Below are positions 14,945 to 26,818 of a stretch of DNA of 40,439 bases, piece after piece. The notes under the pieces were generated by a model. The model ran no database searches, had not been told where the DNA came from, and saw only the letters and a program-made list of their open reading frames with translations. The position numbers and the translations under genes are program-made. This DNA comes from Candidatus Pacearchaeota archaeon (lineage in GTDB: Archaea; Nanobdellota; Nanobdellia; Pacearchaeales; GW2011-AR1). Numbering within the stretch: position 1 is the stretch's first letter; each line of letters starts with the position of its first letter. The stretch is taken from assembly GCA_017609085.1 (NCBI GenBank), contig JAFCEO010000011.1:1-40439 (forward strand), read 5' to 3'.

Positions 14945-17900
14945 TCATGAAATAAAGTCTATTGTTACCAACCGTAATTTTGATTTGTCAAATGGTTCTA
15001 CAATAGTTTTCTTAAATGTACCTTTTTTCATTAAGAAGTTGCTTAAGTTTTCTATCATCTTTTTCCAGTCACTATCCTTTTTATATTGTCTCCATATCTT
15101 TCTTAATATTTGTAATCGTTTTTTAGTTAGGGGTATTTTCAATAGTTTATCATAACAAACATCCCAAACTTTTTGTATAGAATCATCTTCTGGAAATTCT
15201 TCTAGATAGATTTCAATTTCTTTTTCAATGGTTTCAGCAATTTTTTTAATAAAAGTGGTACTTCTTGATTTACTATATTCTTTAATTTTTGTATCCCTTT
15301 GACTAGAAAATATTTCATTATAATTTCTTTCTATATCTTCAACTATTATTTTATTGACTTCATATATTTTCTCAAAAAAATTAGGTATAACTCTTTCTTT
15401 ATTTGGTTTGCACGATATAAAGTCAATTATCTCGGTTTTGTTAGTGATTATTGATCCTGTGTTTACATCATACAGATACCAGAAATGGAAGTCATTACCA
15501 TATTTATAATAAAAGAATATGCCAGAGATTTTGCCTTTTTTTAATCCACTATAAACTCCGTGAGGTATTTTTTCTAATTCATCTAAGGCTTTCTTCTTCA
15601 AAAAGTCTTTTAATGGCTGATAGAATTTCTCTCCACCACCAAAAACATCCTGTTCTAATTCTGCAAATACTTTGGGGTCTTTTCCTTTAATTTTTCTGAT
15701 AATTCCAAAGACTTTAGGATGTATTTCCTCTCCTAAAATAGTCTGGTCTAAACCTACTGATTTGTCAATATCTATAATTTTATTCTGTAGGATTTCAACT
15801 AATTTTAACAATTCTTCTAATTCATCTTCTGGAAAGAAGTTGTAGACAAATATTTTTTTATAAGGAGAGCCAATTCTATCTATTCTTCCTGCTCTCTGAA
15901 TCATTCTTGTCGGATTCCAATGTAGATCATAATTAATTAAATATTTAGCTGTTTGAAGATTTTGCCCCTCAGATAAAACATCTGTACTCATTAGGATATC
16001 AATTTCTTTTTTGAAGAATTTTTCTACAATTTTCTCTCTTTGTTGTGGGCTTTTACTTGTTAAACCAGAACTTGAAATTGCCCCAATTTTAAGTTTTGAG
16101 AACCTCTTATCTTTTATTATTTCATTGTAAATGTAATTCAAAGTATCTGCATAATAAGTAAATAGGACAATCTGGCCATCTTCTGATAATTTCAATAACT
16201 TTTCCTTTAGAACTTTTAATTTTGCATCATCTTTTGCTTTAATTGTTTTTACTTTTTCGAGAATTTTGCTTAGTAGTTTAATGTCTTTGTCTATGTCTCT
16301 AAATAATTCATTTGTGTTATAGCTCTTTAGATCAAATTTCTCCAACACATCCCTTAAATCTTCTTCGTCTATTTCTTCATCAGCACTCATTAAATATTTG
16401 AAAAATGTTTGTTTTGTGAGGAGTTTTCCTGATTTTAAGTATGATTTCAGTTTCTTTAGAAAATTTATATGATTTGAAACACTTTTTCTGAAAGCATAAA
16501 CACTGCTCTCTAATCTTTTAAGTAGAATTGTTCTGAAAATTCCACCAATAGCAATCATACGGCCCAATGCAAGTCTTTCTTCTTCTGTTTTTAGTCCTTC
16601 TTTTCTATATTCTAATATCTTATAATAAGCCATTGTTAGTTTTTCTGTGATAGTGTCTGAAATTTCCTTATACATTCCTTTGTAAACCTTATCTAATTCG
16701 TAGTTTATATTTTCCAAAACTCTTTTTGGGAAGATTATTTTTTGTTCTTTTGTCTCTCCATTAGGAAGTTCAATAAGAATATAGGCATCTGGATAATTTT
16801 CAACAATATAGTCTCTTGTTCTTCTTATTGAGATTTCATTTAGTAAGTCATTTAGCAGCGAAGGATTATCTTTTGCCTGCTTAAAGAACTTAAACAAATC
16901 TGGTATATTTTCTTTAATAAACGCTTTTCTATCCATAAGCATTAATAACATTATTTGCCAATATAAATCCCAAGGGGTATTATTTATTGGGGTAGCAGTT
17001 AAGAAAAGCATGTAAGGTTTTTTACCTTTCCTTGCGATATGGTCATTAACTAAAGTAAAGAAATTTTCCCATCTATTTGATAATGGGTTCCTGAAATTAT
17101 GACTTTCATCGACAACTATTAATTCAACATTATCAAATCTCCCACCAAGTGCTTTTTTTGCTTTTTCTAGAAAATTTTGGGAGGCAAGATCTTCTTGGGA
17201 TAGTATATTCTCTTTTACATCTATTTTTTTTAATTCTCTTCTCCACATTTCTCTTAATTGGGCAGGACAAATAACAAGAATATTCTTTCTTTCATAATAT
17301 CCTATTTTTTCAAGAATCTTTTTTGCAATCCATGTTTTTCCTAATCCAACAGAATCTGCAACAATGCAACCTTTATATTTCTTTAATCTAGTCCAGATTC
17401 TTGCAATAGCATCTTCTTGAAATTCAGCAAGGTTTACTTTTGTTTCTGGAAGACCTTTTGGTTTTTCCTCTTTTTGTTCTTCTTTTATGTCTTCCTTCTG
17501 CAGTTCGTATAGAGTTTTAATATAAATTTCATAAGGCATGTATTCTTTGCTTCCAAATCTCGAATGTTCTAAAATGTCTATTAATTCATCCTTGAAATCT
17601 CTTGATTCTGACCAGAATTTTTCAAACCATTCTCTTTTTGTATATTCTGCCTGAGACCTTAAATGCCAGGTATTTAGTTCGCCATATCTTGTTAATCCAG
17701 CAGAAGTAAAGTTGGACGAACCAATAACAATCCTGTCGTCAAATATGTATGCCTTCCCGTGAAGAAATTTTTCAAACAATCTGATTTCAACATTTTTCCT
17801 TTTTAAGAATTTAATAAATAGCTTTATTGTTTCATCTTGTTCTTTTGTTAAATCTAGACCCTCAATTTCTTTTCTTATTTCCTGTAAAAGAAAATCTCCA

Positions 17901-18118
17901 AGTGTCTTTTCATTCTGGATTTCTGGAGCTTTGCCAAGGAGAAGCCTAAATCTTTTTACACCATTTAAGTTATCTTTAATCATAGCAAAAGCTTGGATAT
18001 TAAAGAAAGCAGTTGCTATATCAAGGTACGTATTTGGGTTTTCTTTTAATGTTTCATTCAAAAAACTAACTAACTTATTTCCTTCGCTGTTGTCTATGAT
18101 TTCTTTTGGTATGGGCAT
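14945..18118 (-). CDS. SNF2-family helicase with N-terminal phospholipase D-like domain
   Basis: HGKAYIFDDRIVIGSSNFTSAG (PLD HxK), VADSVGLGKTW (motif I), VVDESHNFRN (motif II), MIQRAGRIDRIGSP (motif VI). Confidence 0.93.
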   Translation of the reverse strand: MPIPKEIIDNSEGNKLVSFLNETLKENPNTYLDIATAFFNIQAFAMIKDNLNGVKRFRLLLGKAPEIQNEKTLGDFLLQEIRKEIEGLDLTKEQDETIKLFIKFLKRKNVEIRLFEKFLHGKAYIFDDRIVIGSSNFTSAGLTRYGELNTWHLRSQAEYTKREWFEKFWSESRDFKDELIDILEHSRFGSKEYMPYEIYIKTLYELQKEDIKEEQKEEKPKGLPETKVNLAEFQEDAIARIWTRLKKYKGCIVADSVGLGKTWIAKKILEKIGYYERKNILVICPAQLREMWRRELKKIDVKENILSQEDLASQNFLEKAKKALGGRFDNVELIVVDESHNFRNPLSNRWENFFTLVNDHIARKGKKPYMLFLTATPINNTPWDLYWQIMLLMLMDRKAFIKENIPDLFKFFKQAKDNPSLLNDLLNEISIRRTRDYIVENYPDAYILIELPNGETKEQKIIFPKRVLENINYELDKVYKGMYKEISDTITEKLTMAYYKILEYRKEGLKTEEERLALGRMIAIGGIFRTILLKRLESSVYAFRKSVSNHINFLKKLKSYLKSGKLLTKQTFFKYLMSADEEIDEEDLRDVLEKFDLKSYNTNELFRDIDKDIKLLSKILEKVKTIKAKDDAKLKVLKEKLLKLSEDGQIVLFTYYADTLNYIYNEIIKDKRFSKLKIGAISSSGLTSKSPQQREKIVEKFFKKEIDILMSTDVLSEGQNLQTAKYLINYDLHWNPTRMIQRAGRIDRIGSPYKKIFVYNFFPEDELEELLKLVEILQNKIIDIDKSVGLDQTILGEEIHPKVFGIIRKIKGKDPKVFAELEQDVFGGGEKFYQPLKDFLKKKALDELEKIPHGVYSGLKKGKISGIFFYYKYGNDFHFWYLYDVNTGSIITNKTEIIDFISCKPNKERVIPNFFEKIYEVNKIIVEDIERNYNEIFSSQRDTKIKEYSKSRSTTFIKKIAETIEKEIEIYLEEFPEDDSIQKVWDVCYDKLLKIPLTKKRLQILRKIWRQYKKDSDWKKMIENLSNFLMKKGTFKKTIVEPFDKSKLRLVTIDFIS

Positions 18119-18119
18119 T

Positions 18120-18647
18120 TTAATCCTCCAATAGTTTACTTATTTGAAGTATAAACTCTCTGGCTCTCTCTAATGATGTTTTCACTTTTGAAATTTTAAT
18201 TGTTTCGGGAGTGTCATATTGAATAAAGCTTCTCTTCTTTCTTTCATAATCAAAATACTCAATCAATTCTTCTGATTTCATACTGGCTAAAGCTTCATCT
18301 CTTATGTTTTCATAACTTTCTATTAGTGATTTTTTGATTTTTGTTCTTGCAAAAACAATCAAAGCATCAGCTGTTACTTTATGGGAAATTTTTGAACCAA
18401 CTTTGTATCCTAATTTATACAGAAGAGCGTTTGCAAGATAAAACATTGAATAATATGAGGTTACAATTATCCACAAGCTTGATTTTTTATTTTTATATAG
18501 AAAATTAGCTACATTTAGACTTTCTTGGGCATTGTTTTTTAAAATATTAAATACATTTGGAATAAATTCGGTTTTAGTTAATAATCCCTCATTTAAGTAA
18601 GATCTTACATTTGTTTCAGCTTCTTTTATTCTTTTTTCATTCAACAT
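18120..18647 (-). CDS. HEPN-domain protein (putative partner of the MNT protein)
   Basis: All-helical, VTSYYSMFYLANALLYKLGYK and C-terminal YERKKRSFIQYD typical of UPF0332-like HEPN; overlaps the MNT gene. Confidence 0.75.
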   Translation of the reverse strand: MLNEKRIKEAETNVRSYLNEGLLTKTEFIPNVFNILKNNAQESLNVANFLYKNKKSSLWIIVTSYYSMFYLANALLYKLGYKVGSKISHKVTADALIVFARTKIKKSLIESYENIRDEALASMKSEELIEYFDYERKKRSFIQYDTPETIKISKVKTSLERAREFILQISKLLED

Positions 18648-19212
18648 TTTCTATCATCCTGTAATAATCCTCTATTCCTATTAAAATTATGTTATTTTTA
18701 ACTGCTTCGGAAACAACATTAAATTCTTTTGTTTTAAGCATTAGCATAAAGTCTTCAAATTTAGTAAAAGTTGGATGGATTTTTAAAGGAAATAAATCTA
18801 AAATTTCTTGAATCTGATGCTCTCTTTTTTCTTCACAAACAATAAGTAAATCAATATCTGAGTGTTTTGTTGCCCTTCCTTTAGCATAAGAGCCAAACAA
18901 AAGAGCAATAAAAGGAAAATCTAACTCAAAAAGTCTTTTGTAAAGCACTTTAAAATCTTTATTTTTTTTGAACAAGTCGTGTCTTCTTTCATATTCTGCT
19001 TCAAAAACCTTTTTATCAAATTTGTTTGTAAATTTGCATACTTTTGTATTGCCTGTTTTTGTTGTCTTCACAAGTCCCTCTTTCTCAAGAGATTGGATTT
19101 TTTCATAAGCGATTCTATAATTAATATTTGTTCTTTCAGCTATCTTTTTGATAGTAAAGACTTCCTCCTTCTTGCTCAGCAACAGCTTGAGTATTTTTAT
19201 TTCAGCTTTCAT
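18637..19212 (-). CDS. wHTH-MNT nucleotidyltransferase
   Basis: N-terminal winged HTH, then LLFGSYAKGRATKHSDIDLLIV (GSxAxGxxxxxSDIDL). Confidence 0.88.
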   Translation of the reverse strand: MKAEIKILKLLLSKKEEVFTIKKIAERTNINYRIAYEKIQSLEKEGLVKTTKTGNTKVCKFTNKFDKKVFEAEYERRHDLFKKNKDFKVLYKRLFELDFPFIALLFGSYAKGRATKHSDIDLLIVCEEKREHQIQEILDLFPLKIHPTFTKFEDFMLMLKTKEFNVVSEAVKNNIILIGIEDYYRMIENVE

Positions 19213-19483: not shown

Positions 19484-20320
19484 TTATTTTTTTAATTCCT
19501 CAAGATCTTTTTTAACTTTTCTTCTGGCTTTTGGATTTGATTTTATCTTAGATTTCAATTTAGCGAAGAGACCGTATTCACTCCTAATAACAACAAATAA
19601 GAATAGCATTAACTCATAAACTTTATTAACAAAAAAAGAAATGTCTCTCGCTTTTTTGTTTTTCTTTCCTACGAGAACATGCTCTTCATTTATTATGTAA
19701 TTCAGATGAGCAATGTCATTTCTTAATTGATAATCGATATATTCTTCAAATTTTTTCCTAAATTTAGTACCTTTTGATTTGTCTAATACTCCAACCGAAA
19801 TCAAAAAATCATAAAGAGTCAATTTTAAACCTTTTTCTATTTTTTCTCTTATATCCTTATTATACTTTTTAGCAAAATTTCCCAAATCTTTAATTGCTTC
19901 ATCAAGATATTTGCTAATTAACTCATAAATTTGAAGATAAAGGTTTAGCACGATCCAATAACCCAAATATTTATTCTCTTTATTCCAGTTTTCGATGGCT
20001 GCGTATAAGATAGAGAAGCTATTTAATGAGTGGCTAACAAATAATTCTATCTCCTGATAATCTTGCCGAGATGTTTTTCTTTTTTTTAGAATATTTTCAC
20101 TGTATACAATCTCCAAAAATTCATTGAATGCTTTCTTTAATAATTTATAATTATCATCATTACCTATTCTTTTTCCATTAAAAAGTGTGTCTTCAAGAAA
20201 TTTTTGAAAATAATTTCCTTCAAACATCTTAGATACATCAAAATCTCTGATATTGTTTAAATAACTCCCTTTTTCTTTAATCTCTCTATATTTTTCTTTA
20301 AGTTTTTCTTTGTCTATCAT
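19484..20320 (-). CDS. Putative HEPN-like protein
   Basis: Mostly helical; LRNDIAHLNY contains Rx4H. Confidence 0.5.
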   Translation of the reverse strand: MIDKEKLKEKYREIKEKGSYLNNIRDFDVSKMFEGNYFQKFLEDTLFNGKRIGNDDNYKLLKKAFNEFLEIVYSENILKKRKTSRQDYQEIELFVSHSLNSFSILYAAIENWNKENKYLGYWIVLNLYLQIYELISKYLDEAIKDLGNFAKKYNKDIREKIEKGLKLTLYDFLISVGVLDKSKGTKFRKKFEEYIDYQLRNDIAHLNYIINEEHVLVGKKNKKARDISFFVNKVYELMLFLFVVIRSEYGLFAKLKSKIKSNPKARRKVKKDLEELKK

Positions 20321-21035
20321 TTTTATTAAGGATTAATGTTATATTTTCTTTAATTACTTTAAAAGCAATCTCCAATAACAAATTAATATTGATCCCTTTA
20401 ATTCCTAAATCTATATTAGAACTTATTTTGGATAATATATTTGTTTCGAAATCAAAAGTTGTTAACCAATGGGTGAAAGGCGATCTGAATTTATCATAAA
20501 CCTTATCTATAAATTTTTTAAAATTTTTTTCTATATCCTTTTTCTTTCTTAATTTAATAGGCGTCCAAGAATTTCTGCCTATATTCTTATAGGAATAACA
20601 AGCAAAAGTTGGAAAGGTTCTATGATAGGATTCCAAAATAATTTGCTTGAATCCGTACCTGCTACCATAAATTTTTTTATATTGTTTGTATAACTTATCT
20701 AACCTTTTCTCTGATATTCTTTTATTTGAAAGTTTTCTTTCTTCTTTTAACCATTGATAAAAATCTATATATTTATCATACCTTTTTTTATTTGCAATGC
20801 TCTCAATAATTGAACAAAGTAAAAGAAGTGCAATTTCATATTCTTTTTTTCTTAATTCTAAAATAGCTCTTTTAAAGAAATATAACTCTGGATATTTTTT
20901 ATTTAAGTTTGTATAACTTAGTGATTTTTCTTTTAATAACTTCTTAAATTCTTTATTTATTCTTTCTCGAATATGCTTTTTTCTCATCTTCTCAAACTTC
21001 TCGCCTTCTCTATCCTTTGTTTTCTTCATTATCAA
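20298..21035 (-). CDS. Putative HEPN-like (Abi/ApeA-type) protein
   Basis: ALLLLCSIIESIANKK and DKFRSPFTHWL (Rx4H, resembling R-S-x-x-x-H of HEPN). Confidence 0.5.
   Translation of the reverse strand: MIMKKTKDREGEKFEKMRKKHIRERINKEFKKLLKEKSLSYTNLNKKYPELYFFKRAILELRKKEYEIALLLLCSIIESIANKKRYDKYIDFYQWLKEERKLSNKRISEKRLDKLYKQYKKIYGSRYGFKQIILESYHRTFPTFACYSYKNIGRNSWTPIKLRKKKDIEKNFKKFIDKVYDKFRSPFTHWLTTFDFETNILSKISSNIDLGIKGININLLLEIAFKVIKENITLILNKNDRQRKT
20992..21023. repeat. Direct repeat copy A flanking the PD-(D/E)XK gene
   Basis: TCAAACTTCTCGCCTTCTCTATCCTTTGTTTT; 31/32 identical to 21835-21866. Confidence 0.9.
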
Positions 21036-21822
21036 AATTCTTTTTTAAAAATTCATCAAAATAATCTAATTTAATGATATCTACGATTATTTGCTTTGAG
21101 AATAAAGGCAGTATCTTATCTCTTTGCATTAGATCCAATGTTGTTGGCTCATCTAATTCTCTTTCTACTAAAAAACTTATATGATTTGCTTCTTCAATTT
21201 TTATTTTGTCTTCCTCTACTTTTGCTTCGAATAAACCCCCATCAAAAACGATTAAAGGATAATAAAAGAATGGAACTTTTAAGATAAACTTATTTGATTC
21301 GACAAAATCTATAATTTGATTAATATAGAAATATAAAGCAGTTATTACTTGATTTGTAGCCATGTAAATTTCTTTACTTTGCTTTTTATCTGGATTCTTC
21401 AATCCGACAATAGAATAACTCGAAAGTTTTTTGTTGTAATAGTAATGTTTTTGAAAAAGATTCTTGTTTTTTATCCAATCATAAATTTTGCCTTTTGTCG
21501 TTTCAGCTATATTTAATGTGTAAACACTTTTATTTAATTTATTTTGAGTAAAAAATATCCATGGGTGAGAATGATTTTTCTTACATTCAATTAATAAAAT
21601 ATCTTTACCTTTTATAAAACTTGAATCTCTTTCTGCATATATATCTAATTCTCTATAATCTTTAATTCCTTTATCAAAATATCTTGGAGCATTTTTTATA
21701 AACCAACCATTTTTAATAAGAGTATTAGAGACTTTGATACTAACAGGATGACCGCTGTTTTCTATAAATTTTTTTAGTTTGTTTTCATTTATTGGCATTT
21801 TATTAAATTCATTTCTCCTCAT
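21010..21822 (-). CDS. Putative PD-(D/E)XK restriction endonuclease-like protein
   Basis: KDYRELDIYAERDSSFIKGKDILLIECKKNH (D...ExK). Confidence 0.6.
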   Translation of the reverse strand: MRRNEFNKMPINENKLKKFIENSGHPVSIKVSNTLIKNGWFIKNAPRYFDKGIKDYRELDIYAERDSSFIKGKDILLIECKKNHSHPWIFFTQNKLNKSVYTLNIAETTKGKIYDWIKNKNLFQKHYYYNKKLSSYSIVGLKNPDKKQSKEIYMATNQVITALYFYINQIIDFVESNKFILKVPFFYYPLIVFDGGLFEAKVEEDKIKIEEANHISFLVERELDEPTTLDLMQRDKILPLFSKQIIVDIIKLDYFDEFLKKNFDNEENKG

Positions 21823-21823
21823 T

Positions 21824-22678
21824 TTATTTCCCTTTCAAACTCCTCGCCTTCTCTATCCTTTGTTTTACTAACTCAGCCACAGCCCAATAAACCTCTTTCC
21901 TCTTTTCTTTAGTCAAACCAAGCTCATCAAAAATAATTTTATCAAGCTCTGCTCTGTCAGGAAGAGGCTTTGGTTCTTGCTCTCTAATTGGTTTTGATGG
22001 GTCAAGGCCGAGTTCTTCGAAGATTGGTTTTATTTCTCTTCTTGAGATTTTGTTAAATACATTCAATATTTTTTTAACTTGTTTAGCAGAAGTTATATTT
22101 AAAAGAGGAAAATTTATCATATCTATCCTAACTAATCTTATCGCACCACCACCCAATCCCCTCCTTCCTAATACTTCAATAAAAAAATAAGATAAAGAAG
22201 AGTTTAATATAGCACAATATAAAATATCATCTTTCGGATTTTTTGCATCTAATCCATAAAAATTATGTTCAAATGGGAGGTTGTCTACATTATAATGGCA
22301 AATATGTTTATCTCCTCTTAAATCAACCCATAGAAGTTTTGATTTTCTAATTTGAAAGGGAATCCTCTTTATTTTTATAATACTCTTCGCATCCTTACTA
22401 GAAAGTAAAATTTTATTTACCTCTCGAGGACTCTTAAAGACTAATGAATAATTATCTTTATCAAAATTTTTCTCTCTTTTTTTATAATATTTTGAATTGT
22501 TCCCTGTGATAATGCCAGCTTTTACTTTAATAACATCACTTAACTTAACTAATTTTGTGGAACCCTTCTCCAAAATCGTAAAAAAAATATCAGGAGCTCT
22601 CAGGAATTTTCCGCCCCACTTGTTGCCTGCGTATTTGCCCCTTCTAAATTTTTCGGGAATCATTTTAACACCTTCCAA
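21824..22678 (-). CDS. Stand-alone target-recognition domain of a type IIG-like adenine methylase (TaqI-like C-terminal specificity domain); likely start 22663
   Basis: RRGKYAGNKWGGKFLRAPDIFFTILEKGSTKLVKLSDVIKVKAGIITGNN; this block normally continues the methylase polypeptide. Confidence 0.85.
   Translation of the reverse strand: MEGVKMIPEKFRRGKYAGNKWGGKFLRAPDIFFTILEKGSTKLVKLSDVIKVKAGIITGNNSKYYKKREKNFDKDNYSLVFKSPREVNKILLSSKDAKSIIKIKRIPFQIRKSKLLWVDLRGDKHICHYNVDNLPFEHNFYGLDAKNPKDDILYCAILNSSLSYFFIEVLGRRGLGGGAIRLVRIDMINFPLLNITSAKQVKKILNVFNKISRREIKPIFEELGLDPSKPIREQEPKPLPDRAELDKIIFDELGLTKEKRKEVYWAVAELVKQRIEKARSLKGK
21835..21866. repeat. Direct repeat copy B flanking the PD-(D/E)XK gene
   Basis: TCAAACTCCTCGCCTTCTCTATCCTTTGTTTT; one mismatch to 20992-21023. 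Confidence 0.9.
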
Positions 22679-24087
22679 TATCCGCCTTTGTCTGGACCGA
22701 CTCTTTTCAATATACCTAAAGATTTTAATTTAGCAATGTTCTTATCAATTGCAGTTTCACTTATTCTTAAAATCTTAGACATCTCTCTTTTAGTAATGTT
22801 TGGCTTTTCAAAAACAATCAAGAGTATCTTTATTTGGCTTTCTACCAACTTACTACCAACCTTTTCTACCAACTTACTACCAACTTTCTTAGAAAGCATA
22901 TTCAGTAATCTTTCTCTTGGAGTTTTTAATTTCTCTCTTAATAATCTTAAAATTTCTTCTGTTTTTTCTGGGAACTTTTCTGGGAACTTTGTTTTTCTTT
23001 TGAAAACAACCCTGAACCAGTCAGAAGTAATTTCAAATTTTACATCAGGAACCAACCTCTTAATCCTCTTGATTCCAGAGCCAACTTTTTCTATATACCC
23101 CAACCTATGAACCAAATCAAACAATATGGGGTTTCTTGCGACACTTACATTTCCAAGCTCTTTTTCATCAAACAATAATCTCCCGGGATTTGATATCTCC
23201 AGCCTGTCAGGATAAATATCAACCTGAACTCTTCCCTGAATGAAATAGTCCCTATGCACCATTGCATTAATTAAAGATTCCCTTAATGCTTCTTCAGGAA
23301 TCTCTAAATTTTCCTCTCTTTTTATCCCTTTAATCTCAATGTTCTTACTCAAAAATATAAGAATATACTTCATAACATTCTCGTAATTGCTGACAAAATC
23401 ATCATAGAATTCCTTGATGTCCATAACATCCGCCTTGTCAGGAGTTCTGTACAGAACAGCGGCAACTCCGCCGTTTAGGAAAAATTTCTTTAAATTTCTG
23501 CAAAAAAATAACACTCCTGCATTGTTTAATTTGCCATTCGTAATAAGATTCAGATTTTTTAATATATGCTCTCTGCCCAAATCTTTTGAAATCTTTGCTC
23601 TTTCAATGAACAATTCAAAGGTGTTTTCATTAAAATCCTCTTCAAACTTAAAGTCATTATTTGCTTTTTTGTCAAATATTATTAGATCTTCCCTCTGGAA
23701 GAAATCTCTAAGCTCCTCCCTATTCAATAAAACAGAACTTGCTCCCTGTCTTATGTAGCAATGTCCATTAACAAAATAAGGCTTATCCTTTCCTTCTGAA
23801 ACAAACACAATCACTAAATTATCTATCTGTTCAATTTTTACATTTAAAGAGGGTTCCATGTTTTTAGCAATGTCTTGTATCTTTGATTTGTCCCTGTTAG
23901 AGAGATTATATCCTTTAATAATTCCATTATCTTTAACACCTAAAATTATTTTGCCACCAGAAGAATTAGTAAATGCACATATATCTTTTCCTATAGAAGA
24001 GGATAATGACTCTTTAAACTCCAATGTATATCCTTCCCCTGTTTCAATTAATTCTAATAACTCTTTCTTATCCATATTCCCAACCAT
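22660..24087 (-). CDS. AlbA_2/Schlafen-type RecG-like putative DNA-binding protein with C-terminal wHTH; likely start 24075
   Basis: GEGYTLEFKESLSSSIGKDICAFTNSSGGKIILGVKDNG; EEALRESLINAMVHRDYFIQG...ISNPGRL; C-terminal winged helix. Confidence 0.92.
   Translation of the reverse strand: MVGNMDKKELLELIETGEGYTLEFKESLSSSIGKDICAFTNSSGGKIILGVKDNGIIKGYNLSNRDKSKIQDIAKNMEPSLNVKIEQIDNLVIVFVSEGKDKPYFVNGHCYIRQGASSVLLNREELRDFFQREDLIIFDKKANNDFKFEEDFNENTFELFIERAKISKDLGREHILKNLNLITNGKLNNAGVLFFCRNLKKFFLNGGVAAVLYRTPDKADVMDIKEFYDDFVSNYENVMKYILIFLSKNIEIKGIKREENLEIPEEALRESLINAMVHRDYFIQGRVQVDIYPDRLEISNPGRLLFDEKELGNVSVARNPILFDLVHRLGYIEKVGSGIKRIKRLVPDVKFEITSDWFRVVFKRKTKFPEKFPEKTEEILRLLREKLKTPRERLLNMLSKKVGSKLVEKVGSKLVESQIKILLIVFEKPNITKREMSKILRISETAIDKNIAKLKSLGILKRVGPDKGGYWKVLK
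22841..22884. repeat. 24-bp in-frame tandem duplication in the AlbA_2 gene linker
   Basis: TCTACCAACTTACTACCAAC at 22841-22860 and 22865-22884, encoding KVGSKLVE twice. Confidence 0.9.
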
Positions 24088-26818
24088 CCTCCAGCAAATC
24101 TTCTTGTAGAATAGGAAAAACCCTATAATCGTCTGTTTTTACAACATTTTTTACTAATTCAGTAATCCCTTCTCCTCTAATTTTGACTTTAACATTTTCA
24201 ATTTCAATAAGGTTTTTAGCATTGATCACTTCTTCAAATGGCTTTTTAAACATGACAAACTTTGCAGTATGGTTTAGCATAGGCCAGTTATTGCTATTTT
24301 CAGAAACTTTTAATCCATGAATTGTTTTTTCTTCTTCAAATTTTGGAGCACCGAAAAGAGCAATAATTGTATTAACATCTGCATGGGCAAAGCTTCTTTT
24401 TGGGTTGTCATAGATTGCTATAATTGGCACATACTTTAGTAAAAACTCCTGCAAATTTTTACCATAACCAACATCAAGCCAAGAGTTAGAAGTAATAAAG
24501 CAGAATGTTCCTTTTTCATTCAATAATCCAAGGCCATGGAAATAGAAGTAGATATAGTAATCACTTTTCTTGTCTATTTTATCAACAACAGGAAAAATAT
24601 TTCTTACAGATTTAATCAATTTTTCTTTGTATTCTCTTCTGTCTTCCAAACTCACTTCTACTTTCAACTTATTTGGTGGGGAAATCATTTCCTGCCTTAC
24701 ATAAGGAGGATTACCAATCACAATATCAAAACCGCCTTTGTCTGCGAAAACTTCGGCAAAGTCAATGTCCCAGACAAATGGTTTCTTCTCAGGATCTTTT
24801 AGAAGTTTTTTGATTTTCTTTAAATTTTCAATTTCTTTTTTATCTTCTTCAATTTGCTTTTCAATTTTCTCTAATTCTTCTTTTTCTTTTTTGATGTTTT
24901 TTGCATTTATATTTATCTGTGTTCCAAATAATCCTGTTTGTCTTTCTTTCTTTTTTTCAGTATTTTCCAAAACCTCAACATCAGTTTCTAAGCTCTCAAT
25001 CCTTTCATCAATGATTTCTTCAAAAAGTCTGATTTCTTCAGCTCTAACTTCTTCAGGGATTTTGAATTTGGCAGTAGGATCATTTATGAAGTATTTTCTT
25101 TTTTCTTGTTTTAAGTTGTCTAGCTTCTTTTTCAGATGAGGCTTCAAATCATTGGTTCTTATGTTAAAACTTATCCCGCCTATCTCCTGCACAAGAGAAT
25201 CTCCAATCCTTAAATTGAGGTTTAAATTAGGAAGCAAAGGATGTTTTCTTAGTTCTTCTTTCTTGAATTCAGTTTCAACAATCAACTGCAGCCACAATCT
25301 TAGTTCTGCTGCATGAATAGCCCAAGGCATTACATCAACACCATAAAGAGAATATTGGATAATTTTGTTTTTCAACTCGAAATCTGTTAAATTCCTTTTT
25401 GTGTGCTTATACACCATCGTATAAAGCTCAGCAAGAACATTCAACAAGCCAACTAAAAATGCACCAGAACCACAAGCAGGATCTACAGCAGATAAGTTAT
25501 CCAAAACCTCTTCTAATCTATACCACAGCTTTTCTTTATCAAACCACTTCTCGATTTTCTCTTTTTCTTCAGGCAAATCAAAAACTAAATGATAAATTCT
25601 TTCTTTTGGAACTTCTGGTAAGTGTTTTGACAAATATTCAACTATTGCCCTTCTGCACATGAAGTCAACTTCAACTCTTGGTGTGTAAAATATACCTAAA
25701 TCATTCCTGTCATATATTTCTTCAGCCACATTTGCTAATGATTCATAAACATAACCAATCATCTGGGGATCTACTGCTACTTCTTGGTCAAGAGGCATGT
25801 CTTCCTTAATTGTGAAGTTGTACTTCTCAAAAAAGTCAAAAACTTTCTGGAACAATTTATCAGTTATTTTTATTTTCAAATCATCTAATTCATTTTGCCT
25901 AAACAAACCACCATTTAAATAAGGAGAGTTGGATATTACTTTTTTGACCTCTTCTGGCAATCCAGTTATTTCACTTGAACGGTTGTTAAATGCCTTGAAG
26001 AAGATTTCCTTTAGCCAGACATCATAAAATGCATCTTCTCTTTTGAAAACGCCTTTTTTCTTATTTTTGTCTTTTTTGTATTCTGTCCAGAACCAGTCCA
26101 TAAATTTGGCATTACCAAGCCAACTTTTCTTTGATATAAAGTAAATAAACATTATTCTGTTTAGAAATTGCAAAGTAAACTCATGAGCTTCTTTTCTAGG
26201 TATTTTCTGCTTGTCTAATTCTTTTCTTAAAGTAAAGAATATGTTTTTGTAATCTTCAAAAAATGCTTCAGTTACCCTTTCAACACTAAATGCTTTGTTC
26301 CATTTTCTCCACACATCACGCCAGGTATTTTCTTTTTCAAAATAGATGTTTGATAAAGTTTCAATAACTGTATAATGTTCTTTTTTATCAATCAGCTCCT
26401 CTTTATTTATTATAAGTTTTGTTAGTTTGAGTTTGTGTTTTCCTGTTTCAACTTTTTCACGTTTTGGGAATACAAAAATTACTTCTGAGTAATCTACTGA
26501 AAAAATTAATAAAAAATGTAAGTATTGCTTATCAAAAGTTGTTGTAACTGACCTAATAAAAGAAGGAGTTAATGTCTTTGCTTCAATCAGGAAAACAGGT
26601 AGTTTTTCATCAAAACTGAGAATAGCATATATCTCTTTAATCCTCTGTACATCTTCTTTTTTGAAATCAAATTCTTCTTTTTTTCTTTTGTATGAGGCAT
26701 CAAATATAATATCGCTAGGATAGTTAAAGAGTTTGAATAAGCCAAAAATATCTTCTGCAGATTTAAGCTTACCAATATATTCTCGTATTTCTCTCTTTAA
26801 TGTAATATTGTTTTTCAT
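24068..26818 (-). CDS. Type IIG/Eco57I-like restriction-modification N6-adenine methylase lacking its C-terminal recognition domain
   Basis: DPACGSGAFLVGLLN (motif I), VIGNPPYVRQE (motif IV), N-terminal nuclease-like VFLIEAKT; ends at DDYRVFPILQEDLLEDGWEYG. Confidence 0.92.
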   Translation of the reverse strand: MKNNITLKREIREYIGKLKSAEDIFGLFKLFNYPSDIIFDASYKRKKEEFDFKKEDVQRIKEIYAILSFDEKLPVFLIEAKTLTPSFIRSVTTTFDKQYLHFLLIFSVDYSEVIFVFPKREKVETGKHKLKLTKLIINKEELIDKKEHYTVIETLSNIYFEKENTWRDVWRKWNKAFSVERVTEAFFEDYKNIFFTLRKELDKQKIPRKEAHEFTLQFLNRIMFIYFISKKSWLGNAKFMDWFWTEYKKDKNKKKGVFKREDAFYDVWLKEIFFKAFNNRSSEITGLPEEVKKVISNSPYLNGGLFRQNELDDLKIKITDKLFQKVFDFFEKYNFTIKEDMPLDQEVAVDPQMIGYVYESLANVAEEIYDRNDLGIFYTPRVEVDFMCRRAIVEYLSKHLPEVPKERIYHLVFDLPEEKEKIEKWFDKEKLWYRLEEVLDNLSAVDPACGSGAFLVGLLNVLAELYTMVYKHTKRNLTDFELKNKIIQYSLYGVDVMPWAIHAAELRLWLQLIVETEFKKEELRKHPLLPNLNLNLRIGDSLVQEIGGISFNIRTNDLKPHLKKKLDNLKQEKRKYFINDPTAKFKIPEEVRAEEIRLFEEIIDERIESLETDVEVLENTEKKKERQTGLFGTQININAKNIKKEKEELEKIEKQIEEDKKEIENLKKIKKLLKDPEKKPFVWDIDFAEVFADKGGFDIVIGNPPYVRQEMISPPNKLKVEVSLEDRREYKEKLIKSVRNIFPVVDKIDKKSDYYIYFYFHGLGLLNEKGTFCFITSNSWLDVGYGKNLQEFLLKYVPIIAIYDNPKRSFAHADVNTIIALFGAPKFEEEKTIHGLKVSENSNNWPMLNHTAKFVMFKKPFEEVINAKNLIEIENVKVKIRGEGITELVKNVVKTDDYRVFPILQEDLLEDGWEYG

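Follow-up and report, generated by a model that had tools for sequence, protein, structure and literature searches.

A Schlafen-family gene between the methylase and recognition parts of an apparently ancestral single-chain enzyme in a Candidatus Pacearchaeota archaeon

Comparison with homologous loci confirms, at the level of sequence, that a methylase/recognition enzyme which was in all appearance ancestrally a single chain is split in this archaeon by a Schlafen-family gene located between its two parts. The window (the whole stretch of 40,439 nucleotides that was analysed) is one of 27 contigs of a 583 kb archaeal genome that is 88% complete, and one of its ends holds ribosomal and polymerase genes of archaeal type. 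The components of interest, denoted M, A and T, lie in a compact minus-strand block together with three genes without assigned function, an HTH-MNT/HEPN pair and a PLD-SNF2 helicase.

Locus architecture and the split chain

M (24068..26818, minus strand; 916 aa) comprises an N-terminal domain and an Eco57I/BrxX-like N6-adenine methylase (DPACGSG, NPPY), and ends in ...LLEDGWEYG*. A (22660..24075, minus strand; 471 aa) combines Schlafen/AlbA_2, HATPase_c_4 and winged-HTH segments, and T (21824..22663, minus strand; 279 aa) consists of a target-recognition domain (TRD) followed by conserved C-terminal helices, and aligns colinearly with the C-terminal end of the fused chains. A complete AlbA_2 gene thus lies exactly between the methylase and TRD open reading frames, as the preliminary description had it. 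Downstream on the same strand follow three cargo genes: N270 (21010..21822), which by eye is PD-(D/E)xK-like (ELDIYA...LIECKK), has a GC content of 24.6% (lower than the 31–32% of M, A and T) and has a homologue (49%) directly preceding the helicase in locus L045; N245 (20298..21035); and N278 (19484..20320), the latter two with no function assigned. The block is completed by a PDC-M05A-like HTH-MNT nucleotidyltransferase (18637..19212), its HEPN partner (18120..18647) and a PLD (HKD) plus SNF2 helicase-nuclease (14945..18118), the probable restriction effector; the MNT/HEPN pair (18120-19212) is 61% and 77% identical to the pair occupying the same slot in locus L033.

A scan of species-representative genomes returned 33 loci with M relatives. 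The set used for the joint between M and T also numbers 33, some of them near-duplicates, loci that stop short of the joint or are split there having been excluded and two loci from a search with T added; in all 33 a single open frame runs from M (GWEY) into the conserved block of T. Full single-chain homologues are about 1150–1290 aa long, and in the alignment M and T are colinear with them end to end (GWEYPENYKNGRFKAGSYEGNKWGGKYLRAPDIF...) across a hypervariable linker, A being the sole extra element. A occupies this linker, which varies in length and sequence between GWEY and the GNKWGGK block; the joint is a loop in a single-chain AlphaFold model, but that model is weak (pLDDT 67), too weak for the TRD fold to be judged from it. 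At the DNA level, the joint of the fused locus L026 reads GAATATCCCGAAAA, and the window has GAATAT before A and CCCGAAAAA after it.

The M|A junction recurs in one other genome, represented by locus L032, on a contig that terminates inside A; amino acid identity to the window is 88% for M and 96% for A. A search of that genome, run without a positive control, gave no match to T, and the complete M-A-T arrangement was found in no other genome of this survey. Because the L032 junction comes from an independently deposited MAG, an assembly chimera is unlikely. Taken with the 33 fused loci and the position of A in the linker, this junction makes the fused state most simply the ancestral one. The conversion of a single-chain enzyme into separate M and S parts, put forward in the preliminary description, is upheld by these comparisons, as is the end-to-end colinearity it called for; the objection that the homologues of both parts might always be separate genes is contradicted by the joint-covering set.

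We consider the following account reasonably probable: a Schlafen-type gene was inserted into the methylase/TRD linker of a single-chain BrxX/type IIG-like enzyme, giving an M-Schlafen-S operon in which M and T assemble, the PLD-SNF2 protein cuts and the Schlafen protein serves as a back-up RNase. The gene, encoding an AlbA_2 RNase-like domain, an HATPase and a winged HTH, would have entered the linker in such a way that M acquired its stop from the 5′ end of the insert and T a new start from the 3′ end (AAATGA). M and T would then fold separately and assemble non-covalently, by analogy with type I and type IIB systems; in type I and BcgI-like enzymes, separate M and S proteins act together (PMC3874165). 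M plus T would methylate host sites, the PLD-SNF2 protein would cut unmodified DNA, and the co-expressed Schlafen effector, a putative RNase, would presumably fire on inhibition or failure of the DNA-level system.

Junctions, selection and exchange

Translation of M, A and T may be coupled through their overlaps. A starts at the ATG at 24075, with an alternative in-frame ATG at 24087, and stops at 22660. The M/A junction (24068..24075, minus strand) is an 8-nt overlap, ATGGATAA, which lengthens to 20 nt if the alternative start is used, and the A/T junction (22660..22663, minus strand) is an ATGA overlap at which T begins MIPEKFRRGKYAGNKWGG, its first residues being MIPEKFRRGKYAGNKWGGKFLRAPDIF. 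Both overlaps described initially as neat are therefore present, but the 8-nt one is not conserved, L032 having ATA in place of the window's ATG of ATGGATAA. The ATG common to the two genomes is the one that gives the 20-nt overlap, so the true start of A may lie 12 nt earlier, at 24087. GGAAGGTG sits 5 nt upstream of the ATG of T, within A, and is a possible ribosome-binding site for T. A GGAGG near the start of A was considered as an adaptation and rejected, since it is also present in the fused loci L039, L048 and L057.

Between the window and L032, dN is 0.064 and dS 0.70 for M (dN/dS ~0.09), and dN is 0.023 and dS 0.19 for A (dN/dS ~0.12); these low ratios indicate that M and A are not decaying. 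With all three reading frames intact, the motifs of M and A kept and the flanks of T conserved, the absence of decay claimed at the outset holds, and a working M-X-S operon appears likely. It is doubtful, on this evidence, that the Schlafen gene is instead a passenger that broke the enzyme, so that M and T no longer cooperate and the remaining cargo (Schlafen, MNT-HEPN, helicase) is what keeps the locus in place. Such a reading would accord with the absence of complete M-A-T from other genomes, with the existence of frameshifted or interrupted homologues (L048, L043) and with a TRD core in T unlike that of the nearest relatives of M, yet the flanks and C-terminus of T are still about 70–89% identical to close homologues.

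The TRD core itself is 68% identical to that of L037, 30% to that of L033 and about 20–35% to most others. This is the usual picture of recognition-domain exchange, and T may have been swapped. Fourfold-site differences between the window and L032 are fewer in A than in M (9/100 vs 64/216, p=3e-5), and this lower synonymous divergence means that the sharing of A is more recent than that of M; recombination is one way in which this could have come about. Both observations, together with the M-A-...-S order of a type I locus in DPANN (L073, below), would also suit a joint arrival of A and T by recombination from a type I-like locus that already had A between M and S, the incoming pair taking the place of a fused enzyme's C-terminal part. 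We think this improbable: the closest relatives of T are all in fused chains (L037, L038, L051), the C-terminus of T is equally close to the lineage of M and to the TRD-core relatives, and a donor locus with A beside a T of this type was not found. Insertion into the linker remains our preferred reading.

As to the origin of the enzyme, no close relative of M was found in the organism's own archaeal family, which suggests that M was horizontally acquired; viral contigs scanned with M and A contained no relatives.

The enzyme and its Schlafen-family partner

M matches the Eco57I profile (8e-28) and has a gamma-class N6-adenine methylase domain, as type IIG enzymes do, with its motifs (DPACGSG, NPPY) kept in every aligned homologue. 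The N-terminal cleavage site (D...ExK) of type IIG enzymes is not conserved among the homologues, in which the Glu is near-invariant and the Lys two residues on is variable; M of the window has EAK there, so that a nuclease in this particular copy is still conceivable. The recognition domain is a separate reading frame here and is fused in the relatives. Neither are the hallmarks of type I enzymes present, M having no HsdM_N and T no Methylase_S; no Pfam family matched T at 1e-3, the only match being a sub-threshold one to the TaqI_C specificity domain (0.008). Among solved folds, BrxX/PglX, CamA and MmeI rank high in a Foldseek search made with the weak single-chain model. The term 'type IIG-like', used at first for this enzyme, thus fits its gamma-class methylase, but with the ExK not conserved and BrxX/PglX, CamA and MmeI as the closest folds it is a weak label.

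With no conserved ExK at the N-terminus, the nuclease partner of M and T is probably the downstream PLD-SNF2 helicase. In relatives, fused M-T genes are followed by a PLD-SNF2 protein, frequently with variable cargo in between (pairs that by eye are XRE plus PIN-like, MNT-HEPN, and others), and a PLD-SNF2 gene lies near M-T in most of those whose contigs are long enough.

A matches the SLFN_AlbA_2 (3e-20) and HATPase_c_4 (4e-17) profiles and, weakly, an HTH; its genome, as assembled, has no other AlbA_2 match. A profile search matched SLFN13, SLFN11, SLFN12 and SLFN14, and Foldseek paired A with the N-domain of SLFN11 (E 8.5e-4; TM-score weak). In the alignment from which the residues were mapped, E14, E19 and D49 of A correspond to E205, E210 and D248 of rSLFN13, its catalytic triad (PMC5862951), and across 29 homologues of A, E14 and E19 are invariant and D49 is kept in at least 90%. 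A therefore has both the AlbA_2 homology to SLFN lobes and the three-carboxylate site of Schlafen RNases. The initial assignment as an AlbA_2/Schlafen gene stands on these grounds, whereas the accompanying 'RecG-like' is less apt than a description of the protein as a Schlafen-family RNase-like effector.

The C-terminal winged helix of A resembles Lrs14/MarR/Lrp regulators, and a prokaryotic Schlafen domain could, as the wHTH might suggest, be nucleic-acid binding and regulatory. The split would then stand as described, with A regulating transcription of the locus instead of acting as an RNase effector. We judge this rather unlikely in view of the carboxylate triad conserved among the homologues and of profile and fold matches that are to Schlafen RNases.

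Related insertions and known systems

AlbA_2 genes had been said to occur often within type I R-M loci, and the survey has instances in the DPANN type I locus L073 (HsdM-A-HEAT-HsdS) and three plasmids, in which a Schlafen-type gene stands in S-A-R or S-X-A-R order; L072 has HsdM-A. Among 60 homologues of A, 22 have a same-strand gene no more than 60 nt downstream, which 15 of the 22 overlap, and neighbours on both sides are overlapped in 8 of the 60. In post hoc tests that ignore relatedness, an ATGA end is commoner in the A family than in other ORFs (19/41 vs 21/131, p=2e-4), as are early stops in both other frames (14/41 vs 13/131, p=8e-4). Schlafen neighbours in DPANN, inspected by eye, are whole genes, and chain splitting by a Schlafen gene thus seems exceptional.

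A second case of Schlafen insertion with a corresponding empty site is, from gene order, found at L087:1029-3731, where the two genes flanking a Schlafen gene are direct neighbours, lacking it, in many relatives from the same archaeal family; the ends of the Schlafen gene are ATGAATAA (8-nt overlap) and ATGA (4-nt overlap). At L090:2850-4101, the ORF following a Schlafen gene begins MNKKELDFILQ, resembling the start of the Schlafen gene itself, a possible duplication scar. A more general proposal, which we hold only tentatively and think unlikely as a whole, is that the DPANN Schlafen family acts as a plug-in cassette at the level of the ORF: its 5′ end (ATGAATAA/ATGGATAA) would often halt upstream reading in both other frames and its 3′ ATGA restart downstream translation, hence allowing entry into operons or a gene interior without polar damage and making two subunits out of a one-chain methylase, along with an embedded suicide RNase that monitors the enzyme's integrity.

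Within the same enzyme family, the recognition domain of a parcubacterial homologue (L063:8013-12279) is interrupted by an unrelated gene for a 203-aa membrane protein, with the overlap ATGAATGA at the split; its halves are colinear with L058 up to residue 856 and then from 861. This second chain-splitting insert supports, from sequence, a tolerance of splitting in the family. A Nitrospirae homologue (L064:2027-4574) is also split near the L063 site, with no gene between; only the C-terminal part of its M was found, after an unrelated 547-aa ORF, with the recognition part as a separate ORF. Interruptions in L048 and L043 look like frameshifts and were rejected as insertions.

PMC12839542, citing a preprint, describes Schlafen-HATPase-wHTH proteins as back-up effectors and gives their linkage to BREX/BR core loci in at least 1017 taxa. 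They resemble A in domain architecture and in placement inside a methylase-helicase defence locus, but they are embedded between core genes, whereas A interrupts a single-chain enzyme; BREX/BR loci have DUF499 or PglZ, and neither PglZ nor the DUF499 ATPase was found among the nine window proteins scanned by profile. Type I R-M loci with inserted prrC or rlo genes likewise embed a putative RNase effector in an R-M operon (PMC3874165, PMC2610378), but M and S are separate there anyway, and PrrC/RloC are unrelated to A. Type IIB enzymes (BcgI, BsaXI; PMC3874165) have separate RM and S subunits and are, like the window, divided at the methylase/recognition boundary; a cleavage domain is part of their RM, and tandemly repeated specificity domains make up their S, in contrast to the one TRD, the lack of a conserved ExK and the extra gene seen here. 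Single-chain type IIG, BrxX-PglX, MmeI and DrmMI-like methylases are like M in sequence and fold, with the same M-TRD order in the fused homologues, but are one chain where the window has two polypeptides. The components are of known kinds; within the literature and collections searched, their arrangement, in which a Schlafen effector gene sits inside a single-chain methylase and divides it, appears to be new.

The window would thus present a single-chain methylase/recognition enzyme caught turning into an M plus S system through a gene landing between its domains. The natural pair of split and fused forms makes part of the question of type I, type IIB and type IIG interconversion directly testable, and the Schlafen effector shares a tightly packed operon with the enzyme that it may guard.
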